Assembly: GCA_009780955.1 (NCBI GenBank)
Contig: WQZB01000014.1
Location: 1-64,000, forward strand
DNA: 64,000 nt
DNA from: Polyangiaceae bacterium
Lineage (GTDB): Bacteria > Myxococcota_A > Polyangia > Polyangiales > Polyangiaceae
Direction of reading: 5' to 3'
Each line of letters begins with the position of its first letter. The first letter of the stretch is position 1. The position numbers were made by a program, and so were the translations under genes. The notes beneath the pieces are model-generated. The model saw nothing but the letters and a program-made list of their open reading frames with translations, had not been told where the DNA came from and did not search any database. This document shows positions 8,982 to 54,082 of this stretch, piece by piece.

Positions 8982-9071
8982 AGGGGCACCCACGAGGGGT
9001 GCCCCTACAACCAAAAAACGCATATCCGTAGGGGCACCCCTTGTGGGTGCCCTATATGGGTACGCCCCTAC
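8982..9071. repeat. GTAGGGGC-type palindromic repeat array 1
   Basis: aggggcaccc-acga-ggggtgcccct; gtaggggc...gcccctac; spacer aaacgcatatcc shared with 27948-27957. Confidence 0.85.
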
Positions 9072-9671: not shown

Positions 9672-9785
9672 CGAATTGTCTCCTTTTTGCTATCCGCGGC
9701 GAAAAGATAACAACGACGATGGCGGCGGTCGCGGCTCCGATGCGTAAAGATCCGTGAACCGATGCCGCTCTCGATTGGACGCGAT

Positions 9786-10540: not shown

Positions 10541-10630
10541 GACCGCTTTCAAGTTGGCGCGAGGTCGAGGCGGCGGCGAGGACCGGACCGGAGCCGCCAA
10601 CGAAGAGATCGCGTCAAATCGAAAGCGGTC
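10541..10630. repeat. Palindromic element family P, copy P1
   Basis: Arms gaccgctttcaagttggcgcga / tcgcgtcaaatcgaaagcggtc; reverse complement aligns closely with 33801-33922. Confidence 0.85.
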
Positions 10631-14986: not shown

Positions 14987-15119
14987 GTAGGGGCGCAGCA
15001 TGCTGCGCCCCTACGGCGTTTTGTTGGTTGTAGGGGCGCGATTCATCGCGCCCTCGGGAAATGCCCCGGTCGAGCGTCATAATCCGCCTGGGGTTGGGCG
15101 CCATAAATGGCGCCCCTAC
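14987..15119. repeat. GTAGGGGC-type palindromic repeat array 2
   Basis: Perfect 28-bp palindrome GTAGGGGCGCAGCATGCTGCGCCCCTAC at 14987-15014; gtaggggcgcgattcatcgcgccc; gggcgccataaatggcgcccctac. Confidence 0.92.
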
Positions 15120-20282: not shown

Positions 20283-20453
20283 GTCGACCCCTCGCTCGTC
20301 GTAGGGTCGAAACGAAGCGGTCGACTCCACTAGTGTCTGGGCGTCACGAGAATGAAACGCCCGGACACAAACCTGTGCGGTGGCGAAAGGTTCGTTCGAC
20401 CCCTCGCTTGGCGTAGGGTCGAAACGAACCGGTCGACTCCACTAGTGTCTGGG
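20283..20453. repeat. Two ~59-bp direct repeats about 112 bp apart
   Basis: tcgacccctcgct(cgt/tgg)cgtagggtcgaaacgaa(g/c)cggtcgactccactagtgtctggg at 20283-20341 and 20395-20453. Confidence 0.9.
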
Positions 20454-25236: not shown

Positions 25237-27895
<2,659 letters not shown>

Positions 27896-27900
<5 letters not shown>

Positions 27901-28044
27901 GGACGGCCGTTATGGGGCACCCACGAGGGGTGCCCCTACAACAAGAAACGCATATCCGTAGGGGCGTATGGCCATACGCCCGTACACGCAACCGCCAACA
28001 AAACGCTTATTCGTAGGGGCGACCCTTGTGGTCGCCCCTTCTAC
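27896..28044. repeat. GTAGGGGC-type palindromic repeat array 3
   Basis: ggggcacccacgaggggtgcccct; gtaggggcgtatggccatacgcccgtac (27958-27985); gtaggggcgacccttgtggtcgccccttctac (28013-28044). Confidence 0.92.
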
Positions 28045-30668: not shown

Positions 30669-30853
30669 CATGACTGCAGGGACTTCGTCCCGCGCTGCGC
30701 GTTTCCGCTTCGCGGAAAGCAGTCATGTTAGACTTGTCTCAGGGGGCGCGGCGCCCCCTCTTGCCCACAAAAGCGGGCAATTCACCCCTCCGCGAAGTCG
30801 CTCCCGCGACTTCGTTAGCACTACTGCCGGGGAGTTCCCGGCAGTAGTGCTAA
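30666..30853 (+). repeat. 188-bp multi-hairpin element, copy 1 (upstream of metK)
   Basis: Outer stem taacatgactgc/gcagtcatgtta (30666-30677/30719-30730), inner hairpins, 17-bp terminal hairpin 30815-30853; matches 32108-32295. Confidence 0.9.
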
Positions 30854-32111: not shown

Positions 32112-32295
32112 CACTACTGCCGGAACTTCGTTCCGGGCTGGCGCGTTTCCGCTTCGCGGAAACCAGTAGTGTTCCCTTGTCTCAAGGGGGCGCGGAGCCC
32201 CCTCTTGCCCGCAAAGCGGGCAATTCACCCCTCCGCGAAGTCGCTCCCGCGACTTCGTTAGCACTACTGCCGAGAAATCCCGGCAGTAGTGCTAA
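32108..32295 (+). repeat. 188-bp multi-hairpin element, copy 2 (downstream of metK)
   Basis: Same length and hairpin order as 30666-30853; TTAGCACTACTGCCGG / CCGGCAGTAGTGCTAA at the two ends. Confidence 0.9.
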
Positions 32296-32797: not shown

Positions 32798-34696
32798 GTG
32801 ATTCGATGCGCGCGATTCTTTGCTGTGTTCGGTGCTCTGTCGGTAGTCGCCTGCGTGAGCCAAGCACCGGCTCCGGCATTCGTCGCGGCACCGACTCCCG
32901 CGCCATCGACTTCGGCAAGCGCGGCACCTGCTCTGCCGCCGGCCATGGGCAGCGCGAAGCTTTCGGCACCACGGCCGCCGCAGGCTACGCGGCGGCCTGC
33001 TATTCATGAACAGTTCGGCGTGCCAGTGACCGACGACTACGAATGGCTCGAAGATGACAAGAATCCTGAAACGATAACGTTCGCGAACACCGAAAATTCC
33101 TACGCGCGCTCCGTTCTCGATGGGATGTCTGGCCGCGCAGGATTGCGCACGCGCATCGCGACAATAATCGACCGATCGGTTGACAAATCTAGCGAGCCGG
33201 AGTCGAAAGAGGTCTATCCGCGAGACGCGCTTGACGAACTACGAAAGAAGCTCCCGCAAGAGACCAAGGACGAGACTCTGTCGGTCGCGGTTTTCGGCGA
33301 CAATGACACGGTTTACGCCATTTCACACAAAGGCGCGCCACGCGGCAAAGTCGTTTCGTACGGGCTTTCTTCTGGGCGCCATTTCGACATGGTTCCTGAA
33401 AGCGATGGCGTTCTGACCGATCTCGTTGCAACCCGATCCGCGCTCTATCTTATCGAGGTTGCGTTCGGCTCATCGCGCATTCGAAGGCTACCACTTGGCA
33501 TCAAACCCGAGCCACTCGCGCGCGAAGTGCCCAAGCCCGAGCCATCCAAACCGTCCAAGAAAGCCCGAAATCGCTCGTCGCCTCGTACATCTCGGAAGAA
33601 CCCGGTGCCAAAGCCCGTGCGGCCTCTGGCAACCACGATTCCGTTGTTCGATCGTGGTGTGACCTTGGCCGAATTGCCAATTGTGCCCCTGGCAAGAGTT
33701 CTTGCCGCGGAAAAGAAAGATAACGATTTGCTCTTGCGGATCGAGACCTACCTCGAACCTCCAGCGTGGTATCGCTACATCGCTTCCGAGCATCGCCTCG
33801 AGCGCTTTCGATTTGACGCGATCTCTTCGTTGGCGGCTCCGGTGCGGTCCTCAAAGCCGAAGCAGGCTGTTCCGGTCCGCTCCTCGCCGACCGCCTCGAC
33901 CTCGCGTCAACTTGAAAGCGCTCTAATTCTTACTGCATATGACTCGCAGCCTCGCGCAGTGAGCGACACGGAAGTCGTGCGCGAAAAATGCACCTCGAAC
34001 GGTAGCACGAAGGTGTTCATGAACATCGTGCGCCGCAAAGGAGCGGTGCTCTCCGGCGCGTCCCCAACACTTCTCATTGAAAACAGCGATGGAATTCTAC
34101 CGAGCTTTCGCCCCTGGCATCGCGCATGGCTCGACGCTGGAGGCATCCTCGCGGAGCCGGACCTTCGCGGTGCAGGCAAGACCCATGAGAAGGTGGCCAA
34201 TGACTTTTTTGAATGCGCGAAAGCTCTAAGCTCGCGTGGGTTTACGAAGCCCGACAAGCTTGGGATTATGAGCCAATCGGCCAATAGCTTTTTGATGGGC
34301 GCCGCCATGGTTCAGCACCCCGAAATGTTTCGCGCCGTGGTTTCTGAAAATGGCAATTACGATAGCCTTGGCACCCGCGTAAAAAACGAGACTGAGTTTC
34401 GTACTCAGGTGGCATTCTCTCCCTATTACAATACCAAAAATGGCACCACGTACCCGGCCGTACTCTTGATGACGAGCGACGGCGAATCGCGTCAAATCGA
34501 AAACGGTCAAGCGCGCAAAATGGTCGCGCGACTGCGCGCGACCAACTCTGGATCTCGGCCAATTCTTCTTCGCGCAAGCGAGAGACAAGAAGTTGCCGCG
34601 AGTGACCGGCTCGAACGAGAGATCGATGCAACTGTCGATATGCTTGCATTCCTTTTCAACGAGCTGGGCATGCAGCTGCCTACGGCTACCCACTGA
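32798..34696 (+). CDS. S9A prolyl oligopeptidase-like lipoprotein, degenerate active site, containing palindromic repeat insertions
   Basis: GVPVTDDYEWLEDDKNPETITFANTENSYARSVLDG and PTLLIENSDG...LGIMSQSANSFLMGAAMVQHPEMFRAVVSE; GTG start at 32798. Confidence 0.85.
   Translation: MIRCARFFAVFGALSVVACVSQAPAPAFVAAPTPAPSTSASAAPALPPAMGSAKLSAPRPPQATRRPAIHEQFGVPVTDDYEWLEDDKNPETITFANTENSYARSVLDGMSGRAGLRTRIATIIDRSVDKSSEPESKEVYPRDALDELRKKLPQETKDETLSVAVFGDNDTVYAISHKGAPRGKVVSYGLSSGRHFDMVPESDGVLTDLVATRSALYLIEVAFGSSRIRRLPLGIKPEPLAREVPKPEPSKPSKKARNRSSPRTSRKNPVPKPVRPLATTIPLFDRGVTLAELPIVPLARVLAAEKKDNDLLLRIETYLEPPAWYRYIASEHRLERFRFDAISSLAAPVRSSKPKQAVPVRSSPTASTSRQLESALILTAYDSQPRAVSDTEVVREKCTSNGSTKVFMNIVRRKGAVLSGASPTLLIENSDGILPSFRPWHRAWLDAGGILAEPDLRGAGKTHEKVANDFFECAKALSSRGFTKPDKLGIMSQSANSFLMGAAMVQHPEMFRAVVSENGNYDSLGTRVKNETEFRTQVAFSPYYNTKNGTTYPAVLLMTSDGESRQIENGQARKMVARLRATNSGSRPILLRASERQEVAASDRLEREIDATVDMLAFLFNELGMQLPTATH
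33801..33922. repeat. Palindromic element family P, copy P2, inside the S9-like CDS
   Basis: agcgctttcgatttgacgcga ... tcgcgtcaacttgaaagcgct; encodes RFRFDAISSLAAPVRSSKPKQAVPVRSSPTASTSRQLESA. Confidence 0.9.
34485..34508. repeat. Partial family P arm (P5) inside the S9-like CDS
   Basis: atcgcgtcaaatcgaaaacggtca vs gatcgcgtcaaatcgaaagcggtc at 10607-10630. Confidence 0.55.
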
Positions 34697-40293: not shown

Positions 40294-40340
40294 GACCGCT
40301 TTCAAGTTGAAGTTTATGCGCGTCAAATCGAAAGCGGGCT
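40294..40340. repeat. Palindromic element family P, miniature copy P3
   Basis: gaccgctttcaagttga agtttatg cgcgtcaaatcgaaagcgggct. Confidence 0.8.
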
Positions 40341-42796: not shown

Positions 42797-44032
42797 ATGA
42801 AACCCAATGACGTACGATTCGCACTACCCACACTCCTCCTCGGTGCATCGCTCGTGGGTGCATCACTCACGGCGCTGAGCTGCAGCGACAGCTCAGACGA
42901 CACCGGTTCGAACAACAACGACCTAAACAACGCTGACGCCAGCACATCCGACTCTGGCGACAACAATACGAATCCCGTTTCGATCGATCCCACAAGACTT
43001 CTTTCCTTTGCGCCGCTTCCTAAGGTGATGTGGCCGGCAGAGGGCGACAGCAACAACCGCCTTCTTTTCCAAAAGAAGGTGGACCTCGGCAAGCAGCTCT
43101 ATTTTGATACGCGTCTGTCAAAAAATAATGATATTTCGTGCAACTCGTGTCACCTTCTCGATCAATATGGTGTCGACGGTCAGCCAGTGAGCGACGGCAC
43201 TAACGCCGACAAGACGGCTACCCCACCACACGGCAATCGCAACGCGCCAACTGTGTACAATGCGGCACTGCATCTTTGGCAGTTTTGGGACGGCCGCGCG
43301 GAAGATGTGGAAGCGCAGGCACTCGGTCCGATTCTGAATCCCGTCGAAATGGGTATGAAAGACGAACAAGAAGTCCTCGCCGTCATTAACTCGATTGACG
43401 GATATGTCACCGAGTTCGCCGCGGCTTTTCCACCAGAAGATTTAAACGCAACAGGCAAAGATCCAAACGAGAACACAACCCCAGTTTCGTATATCAACAT
43501 TGGCAAAGCCATTGGCGCGTTCGAGCGAACACTCGTTACGCCTTCACGTTGGGACGCCTATCTCAATGGAGACAAGAACGCCCTGACGGCCGCCGAGCTC
43601 GCCGGCCTTGCCAAGTTCATGGAAGTTGGGTGCGACACTTGCCACAATGGTGTAGCCATGGGCGGGCGCGGCTTCGACTTGCTCGGCGAAACGAACGCGT
43701 GGCCTTGGCCGGGCCATCCTAACGCTGACGGATACGAAGAAATCGGGCGTGCCGACGTCACGAACGACGACGCTGACAAGTATGTCTTCAAAGTCCCGTC
43801 GCTTCGTAACGTGGAAAAAACGGGGCCATACTTCCACGATGGCTCGGTCACCACACTGGAAGAAGCCGTCAACAAAATGGCCTATTACCAACTCGGCAAA
43901 ACTCTTTCGAGCGACGACGTAGCAAGCATCGTGACATTCTTGAAGGCTCTTACTGGCGATCTCGATGACGCTACGATTACGAAGCCCACCCCCCTGCCGG
44001 GCAAAGACGACGGCGGAGGCACGACTCTATAA
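42797..44032 (+). CDS. Di-heme cytochrome c peroxidase family lipoprotein (paralog 2)
   Basis: CNSCH, CDTCH; strongly similar to 1563-2708 product. Confidence 0.93.
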   Translation: MKPNDVRFALPTLLLGASLVGASLTALSCSDSSDDTGSNNNDLNNADASTSDSGDNNTNPVSIDPTRLLSFAPLPKVMWPAEGDSNNRLLFQKKVDLGKQLYFDTRLSKNNDISCNSCHLLDQYGVDGQPVSDGTNADKTATPPHGNRNAPTVYNAALHLWQFWDGRAEDVEAQALGPILNPVEMGMKDEQEVLAVINSIDGYVTEFAAAFPPEDLNATGKDPNENTTPVSYINIGKAIGAFERTLVTPSRWDAYLNGDKNALTAAELAGLAKFMEVGCDTCHNGVAMGGRGFDLLGETNAWPWPGHPNADGYEEIGRADVTNDDADKYVFKVPSLRNVEKTGPYFHDGSVTTLEEAVNKMAYYQLGKTLSSDDVASIVTFLKALTGDLDDATITKPTPLPGKDDGGGTTL

Positions 44033-44171: not shown

Positions 44172-44876
44172 GTGCTGCATATGCGCCATAATTACGCAGT
44201 CGATCTTTTGCATTCGACGCAACCAGAAGAAAAAATGGACGAATATGGCAGTATAACGGCTGGCAAAGGTACCGATGGCGAGGCAGGTACTACACTGGCG
44301 GATGCGGTTAATGGTCCGAATGCAAAGGGGCAAGCGGGCGGGGCTGGTTTTTCCGGTGCAGCAGCTGAAAAAGCAAACAAAGTGCCTGCGCAGGGCGGAA
44401 CAAACACATGCAGCGACGAAGCAGCAGGCGGGGCCGGCGCACTAGCGCCCTTCTATGCCAGCAGCGCCAACGGCTGTTATCCCCTAATACCCTTTCAGCC
44501 TGCCGTAGTAAAATCGGGCAACGCTGGCAAAAATGGTGACGATGGCGTTAGCGCTATTGGCACGGGTGTCTTCAATGCGAATGGATATGTGCCTGCCGAT
44601 GGGACCCCAGGAAAGAACGGTAGCCCCGGCTCTGGCGGAAGCGGCGCGGGCGGCCCAAGCATCGGCGTCGCTTACACGAGTGGCACGCCCAATTTTGCCA
44701 ACAGTGCCAAAGCGAAAGCTGGCACACCTGGCGCCGGCGTTGGTCAGGACTCGAAAACATTCGAAAGCATGACCTGGACGCTTCCAGCATCGGCCGCGGG
44801 TATGCGCAAGACATGTATTCGTTTTGAACGTACCGCTTTCGATTTGACGCGTTCGCGTTGGCCGTCGGCTCGTTGA
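44172..44876 (+). pseudogene. Fragment of Gly-rich (PGRS/collagen-like) protein
   Basis: GGSGAGGPSIGVAYTSG..AKAGTPGAGVGQ, no signal peptide, terminates inside a family P repeat arm. Confidence 0.5.
44832..44860. repeat. Partial family P arm (P4)
   Basis: accgctttcgatttgacgcgttcgcgttgg. Confidence 0.6.
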
Positions 44877-53943: not shown

Positions 53944-54082
53944 GAGGGCGCGATGAATCGCGCCCCTACAACAAAACAAGACACATTCGTAGGGGCGTAT
54001 GGCCATACGCCCCTATACACGCAACCGCCAACAAAACACATCAAAACGCACATCCGTAGGGGCGCCATTTATGGCGCCCTCA
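53944..54082. repeat. GTAGGGGC-type palindromic repeat array 4
   Basis: gagggcgcgatgaatcgcgcccctac; gtaggggcgtatggccatacgcccctat; gtaggggcgccatttatggcgccctcac. Confidence 0.92.

Follow-up and report, generated by a model that had tools for sequence, protein, structure and literature searches.

A palindromic element inserted in frame into an S9 peptidase-like gene belongs to a probably mobile repeat family of two related Polyangiaceae

The stretch of 64,000 nucleotides analysed here (the window), from the genome of a Polyangiaceae bacterium (G000), contains a 632-codon open reading frame related to S9 peptidases that stays open across a long palindrome, raising the question whether this segment is an original part of the protein or DNA that arrived later and, if so, by which route. 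Palindromes of 100-150 bp that lie in frame within unrelated genes and encode a conserved peptide are known as Rickettsia palindromic elements or RPEs (PMC10969869, PMC3767692), and the initial annotation had drawn an analogy between these and the window's segment, which it described as a 122-bp insertion. Our analysis supports an RPE-like in-frame insertion in an unrelated genome, given orthologs that lack the segment and a repeat family to which it belongs. Very probably, the segment is one copy of a non-autonomous mobile palindromic element present in two related Polyangiaceae, whose insertions into genes survive where they keep the reading frame. Both the arms and the in-frame position are confirmed, and the boundary given by orthologs corrects the length of the inserted unit to 126 bp, or 42 codons:

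33800..33925, + strand: palindromic element in sense orientation, 126 bp, in-frame ERFRFDAISSLAAPVRSSKPKQAVPVRSSPTASTSRQLESAL (family alignment, ortholog boundary, empty and filled RimI pair)
33801..33825, + strand: left hairpin arm, pairing with 33898-33922 (fold and covariation, helix 1)
33898..33922, + strand: right hairpin arm, pairing with 33801-33825 (fold and covariation, helix 1)

What the gene looks like without the insert is shown directly by thirteen S9 orthologs, taken from congeners and from elsewhere in the order. They read EHRL-VKTAMAKAPPADMSD or similar at this site, with RL joined immediately to VKTA, whereas in the window EHRL is followed by ERFRFDAISSLAAPVRSSKPKQAVPVRSSPTASTSRQLESAL (its first residue being ambiguous) and then by ILTAYDSQPRAVSD, leaving 42 codons between RL and ILTA. 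The sequence before insertion was probably CGC CTC ATT CTT ACT or a near equivalent, and the cut point is uncertain by as much as two or three bases.

The segment is a member of a large repeat family. Matches to an 18-nt arm pattern with at most 3 mismatches number 8 in the window against a chance expectation of 0.35, a count that no shuffle reached, and a 50-nt half-element pattern with at most 3 mismatches yields 97 matches in G000 and 0 for the reversed control. From a sample made up of 1.14 Mb of contiguous contigs and about 60 stretches, an HMM found 55 loci in the unselected 1.14 Mb, which extrapolates to about 200 copies per genome. The resemblance to 10541-10630 that had been pointed out before (60 nt at 92% and 33 nt at 94% complementarity in the inverted-repeat search) is therefore real and highly significant as part of this family of about 200 copies, but the supposed addition of about 30 bp in the S9 copy turned out to be a deletion of about 34 bp in the other one, whose core measures 84 bp compared with 117-118 bp in the family. 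Further copies in the window are as follows:

10541..10630, - strand: second copy, core of 84 bp with internal deletion (inverted-repeat search, family alignment, ORF reading)
40297..40336, + strand: minimal copy of two arms with almost no interior (arm-pattern search)
9766..9783, - strand: solo arm with 2 mismatches (arm-pattern search)
44834..44851, - strand: solo arm with 0 mismatches (arm-pattern search)

The copy at 10541-10630 lies outside gene interiors: it closes a TsaB-like gene on the minus strand at its 3' end by supplying the stop codon (...QPRPLSI*). Element ends read (TW)GACCGC...GCGGTCTAR, and two core classes dominate, one of 117 bp (67 copies, net 125 bp) and one of 118 bp (22 copies, net 126 bp), the 125-bp sister class thus being the commoner; variants carry a nested palindrome of about 49 bp or internal deletions, or consist of arms only. 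No Rfam family reached threshold for the element, and collections of viruses, phages and plasmids contained no copies beyond a single weak 30-bp plasmid match that we disregarded. Several contigs start or end in an element copy (C54:2, C65:2, C5:4 and the end of C45 in G000; the starts of C104 and C157 in the congener G010), indicating that the assemblies were broken by these repeats and that a few of the contexts may be incomplete.

Other repeats occur in the same stretch. Palindromes of a second family, whose ends are GTAG (e.g., GTAGGGGCGTATGGCCATACGCCC), are found at 8983-9046, 15024-15055, 27884-28031 and 53944-54074; they recall GTAG-tagged REPs, yet no Y1 transposase was found in G000, and repeats similar to them lie in the interior of the main-element copy at C7:53374 of this genome. 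Direct repeats of about 140 bp that are 91-94% identical (30697-30838 and 32141-32281) lie on either side of metK, which encodes SAM synthetase, with related sequence both at C8:43093 and fused to the N-terminus of a different ORF (L193). The segments 1839-2153 and 43085-43417 are paralogous at about 80% identity and share a cytochrome-c-peroxidase-like motif (LYFDPRLSKNQDISCNTCH), and 20284-20453 holds a repeat in two 58-bp copies, 95% identical and spaced 112 bp apart.

Among 38 genomes of the order, the family is confined to G000 and its congener G010, with five of the other 36 relatives showing one short match each of 26-46 bp. G010 matches the Polyangiaceae bacterium MAG Emb289P4bin34 from termite gut, where Emb289 denotes the humus-feeding termite Embiratermes neotenicus (PMC7024585). 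Both genomes are small, with 4.2 and 4.8 Mb compared to 6.6-11.9 Mb in congeners. Their aligned DNA is mostly around 70-80% identical while element copies reach up to 98%, suggesting that the elements are recent or mobile.

The element folds as one long hairpin (-68.3 kcal/mol, z = -6.8), and its pairing is borne out by covariation: standard pairs fill 98.8% of pair cells across 85 copies, and double-sided changes number 81 against 14.6 in shuffles, a signal abolished by sliding the pairing partner. Stem changes lead nearly always from one Watson-Crick pair to another, with hardly any one-sided G-U steps, and nearly every copy retains one stem mismatch (columns 15/114). The fixed mismatch and the near absence of one-sided G-U changes suggest that the hairpin acts as DNA, not RNA.

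Where do the copies sit relative to genes? The initial annotation had suggested a census of copies inside and between coding sequences, which we carried out; it places most of them between genes or at gene ends and a minority in frame within proteins in both genomes. In the unselected sample, 5 of 47 copies (ca. 11%) fall into the interior of a gene-like frame, compared to 74% of random positions, with genes called by a simple codon model of our own making instead of a standard caller; reading each of the five leaves at most three that are truly internal. Considering all copies, those at 3' gene edges outnumber those at 5' edges by 40:13, and those between convergent genes outnumber those between divergent ones by 20:2. 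The coding-potential class INFRAME overcounts internal copies by including the tsaB 3' end and N-terminal extensions, which we corrected by reading ORF by ORF.

This reading identified 15 internal copies whose two flanks both show coding signal within a single open frame; G000 contributes 8 of them and G010 the other 7. Three further hits that are non-genuine or minimal do not enter this count: an InfC-like gene in L141, C6:76134 and, at 40297, the arm pair of 40 bp. All 15 have a length divisible by three and phase 0, compared to 55 of 172 among copies overall, though we do not take the corresponding p-value of 8.6e-9 as proof because requiring coding flanks in one frame partly builds this result into the definition. 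Most are 126 bp long (about 42 aa), others 123, 141, 189 or 237 bp, and the peptides read DRFRFDAISS...SRQLESGL in sense and DRFQVDARSRR...SRQIESGL in antisense orientation. Outside this phase, the 126-bp consensus offers four more frames, of which three are interrupted by stop codons and the fourth meets the right-end TAR. Two in-frame copies of G010 (L129:170-350 and L161:429-657) carry an extra nested coding segment (GMRPDSNCTESTKWTEYSESDGAKRSEQ) with the frame kept.

The host proteins are diverse. In G000 they comprise the S9 homolog, an Eco57I-type methylase, MtnA, an MFS transporter, a glycosyltransferase, two unnamed proteins and, assigned by motifs, a UvrD/AddA-like helicase; in G010 they are LigD, RimI, a LuxE-like protein, a thioesterase, two membrane glycosyltransferase-like proteins and an ImuB-like protein, with assignments lacking a Pfam hit resting on inspection. 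Judged from sequence, the insertion sites in MtnA and LigD are loops or domain junctions. The LigD insert falls between the phosphoesterase and polymerase domains (two Pfam domains), and the MtnA site is contiguous in solved homologs, where residues 146 to 151 of the Thermotoga maritima protein (T. maritima 1t9k) correspond to 151 to 202 of the query. Matches to MtnA in relatives begin past the insert at residue 193-203, and the protein with insert keeps the motifs THCNAG and GADRI. RimI carries the insert in G010 but not in G000, a pair that fits the inserted unit GAC...GGTCTA with no duplicated bases.

For the S9 homolog of the window, the initial annotation was right to call the host gene peptidase-like, but alignment to orthologs reveals it as degenerate:

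32798..34696, + strand: host ORF of 632 aa, degenerate S9 (prolyl oligopeptidase) homolog (ORF; PF00326 E=1.1e-16, PF02897 E=1.7e-13; ortholog alignment)
32978..33175, + strand: Peptidase_S9_N remnant, with loss of about 200 aa of the propeller that come next in orthologs (Pfam, ortholog alignment)
34100..34669, + strand: Peptidase_S9 hydrolase domain with Ser kept and catalytic Asp and His not (Pfam, ortholog alignment)
34486..34508, + strand: solo element arm (TCGCGTCAAATCGAAAACGGTCA) that reads SRQIENG in the element's coding phase (arm pattern with 1 mismatch in 18; ortholog alignment)

The insert sits in the linker ahead of the hydrolase domain, and the solo arm is a second hit on the gene that occupies the place of the orthologs' catalytic-Asp loop (GANDPRVDP). 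Of the Ser-Asp-His triad, Ser is present and the Asp and His positions are altered relative to the 13 orthologs; the YGGF and WHxAG loops and the His motif (VGHGMG) are likewise gone. Throughout several indels the frame has stayed open, with large deletions and insertions keeping it. Judging from these residues and motifs, the gene product has lost its competence as an S9 peptidase, so the insertion at this locus may sit in a decaying gene; MtnA, LigD and RimI make a better case for tolerated insertions.

One might thus suspect that the S9 gene is a pseudogene whose frame is open by chance and whose insert has no meaning at the protein level there. We consider this a serious possibility falling somewhat short of even chances, restricted to the S9 locus and compatible with a mobile element. 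Besides the lost catalytic residues, loops and propeller part, the small size of both genomes speaks for it, as does the sister genome G010, where no S9 match scores above its element matches. Yet all 632 codons are open, a codon signature is seen to either side of the insert, the large indels keep the frame, and decay of this gene leaves the in-frame copies in MtnA, LigD, RimI and the MFS transporter, with their key motifs or domains intact, unexplained. The S9 insertion may be neutral, and the case for the phenomenon stands without this gene. That the segment is instead an ancestral or lineage-specific protein domain, palindromic by chance, is hardly credible: the recurrence of its peptide in many proteins would fit a domain, but most copies are non-coding, peptides are encoded in both orientations, a 125-bp class is unable to keep frame, and 13 of 13 aligned orthologs lack the segment, contrary to what an ancestral domain would predict.

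A mobile element remains the preferred reading, and the kind of mobility has to be considered. Terminal inverted repeats and a TA at the right end of 50 of 97 copies (left end, 18 of 97) are reminiscent of a classical MITE that derives from a DDE insertion sequence, targets TA or YTAR and has lost its duplication by decay. This is rather improbable given that left and right flanks of the 97 copies agree over 1-5 bp no more clearly than shuffles do, that the flanks of the RimI copy differ (left CCC, right CTA), and that neither DDE_3 (IS630-type) nor Transposase_20 (IS110) was present in G000 or G010. Reverse transcriptase (RVT_1) was likewise absent from both genomes. The DDE_Tnp_1 loci in both genomes lack element ends (GACCGCTTTC) and are not flanked by arms; one such fragment at a contig end has arms nearby, not around it. 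A REP/REPIN population mobilised by a RAYT (Y1) transposase is somewhat easier to envisage though still unlikely. Like REPINs, the family forms hairpins of inverted arm pairs in hundreds of copies with many solo arms, shows no duplication and has an extragenic bias (as in PMC3116915), and the fixed stem mismatch and scarce one-sided G-U changes would suit a DNA hairpin. In contrast, Y1_Tnp (PF01797) was absent from G000 at 98.7% completeness and its single copy in G010 has no arms nearby, the element ends are neither GTAG nor CGTC, and the arms pair with each other instead of each being palindromic.

Under the mobile-element reading that we favour, the element would insert as a unit GAC...GTCTA without detectable target-site duplication, its hairpin DNA most likely being the substrate of an enzyme supplied in trans. 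Selection would purge most insertions into genes, leaving those that are divisible by three in length and in a stop-free phase, in either orientation. With these two properties, a host protein would gain about 42 hydrophilic residues if the insert is translated, often at a loop, domain junction or terminus where they may be tolerated. For the S9 gene, this would mean an insertion into the linker and the downstream solo arm, with the frame staying open and peptidase competence being lost.

Which known system does this family resemble most? The palindromic elements of Rickettsia (RPE-1 to RPE-3 especially) and Wolbachia are likewise palindromic, in frame in unrelated genes and coding for a conserved peptide, and their hosts have reduced genomes as do G000 and G010. 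With 126 bp, the element falls into the RPE size range of 100-150 bp and forms a covarying hairpin, and it has 15 in-frame copies in unrelated genes, with insert-free homologs for S9, MtnA and RimI. Unlike RPEs, the family belongs to Myxococcota instead of Alphaproteobacteria, with the Polyangiaceae G000 and G010, not Rickettsiales, as the genomes in which it was found, comprises about 200 mostly extragenic copies, codes in both orientations with one fixed phase and includes a second, frame-breaking 125-bp class. The likeness is one of architecture only, and we do not classify the family, which sits in another phylum, as an RPE. It shares with REPINs and REPs the hairpins of inverted pairs, copy number, solo remnants, apparent lack of duplication and extragenic bias but differs in the absence of a RAYT from G000, of a GTAG/CGTC tag and of individually palindromic arms as well as in its intragenic coding copies. 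MITEs such as Correia/NEMIS and ERIC are similarly short, non-autonomous inverted repeats with many copies, some of them intragenic, but the family shows no target-site duplication and no related insertion sequence was found in the two genomes among the DDE_3, Transposase_20 and DDE_Tnp_1 families.

Our best reading, by analogy, is that this non-autonomous palindromic element would work like the Rickettsia palindromic elements, though in Myxococcota. A bolder view that we hold to be unlikely sees a second, independently evolved protein-coding palindrome system outside Rickettsiales, with the element kept open in one phase in both orientations, as mobile DNA adapted to persist within proteins, and supplying 42-residue segments to enzymes of a genome-reducing lineage or, more extreme, a hairpin that the ribosome bypasses, leaving the proteins as they were. 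Rickettsia and Wolbachia are the main sources of descriptions of palindromes inserted in frame into many proteins, and a similar process elsewhere in prokaryotes was called "conceivable" in a 2024 review (PMC10969869). With the filled and empty RimI genes of the sister pair and with MtnA and LigD retaining intact motifs, the cost, retention and function of such insertions are directly testable. An apparently unrelated family in Polyangiaceae would make the addition of protein segments by mobile DNA a recurrent route, again in lineages with small genomes.
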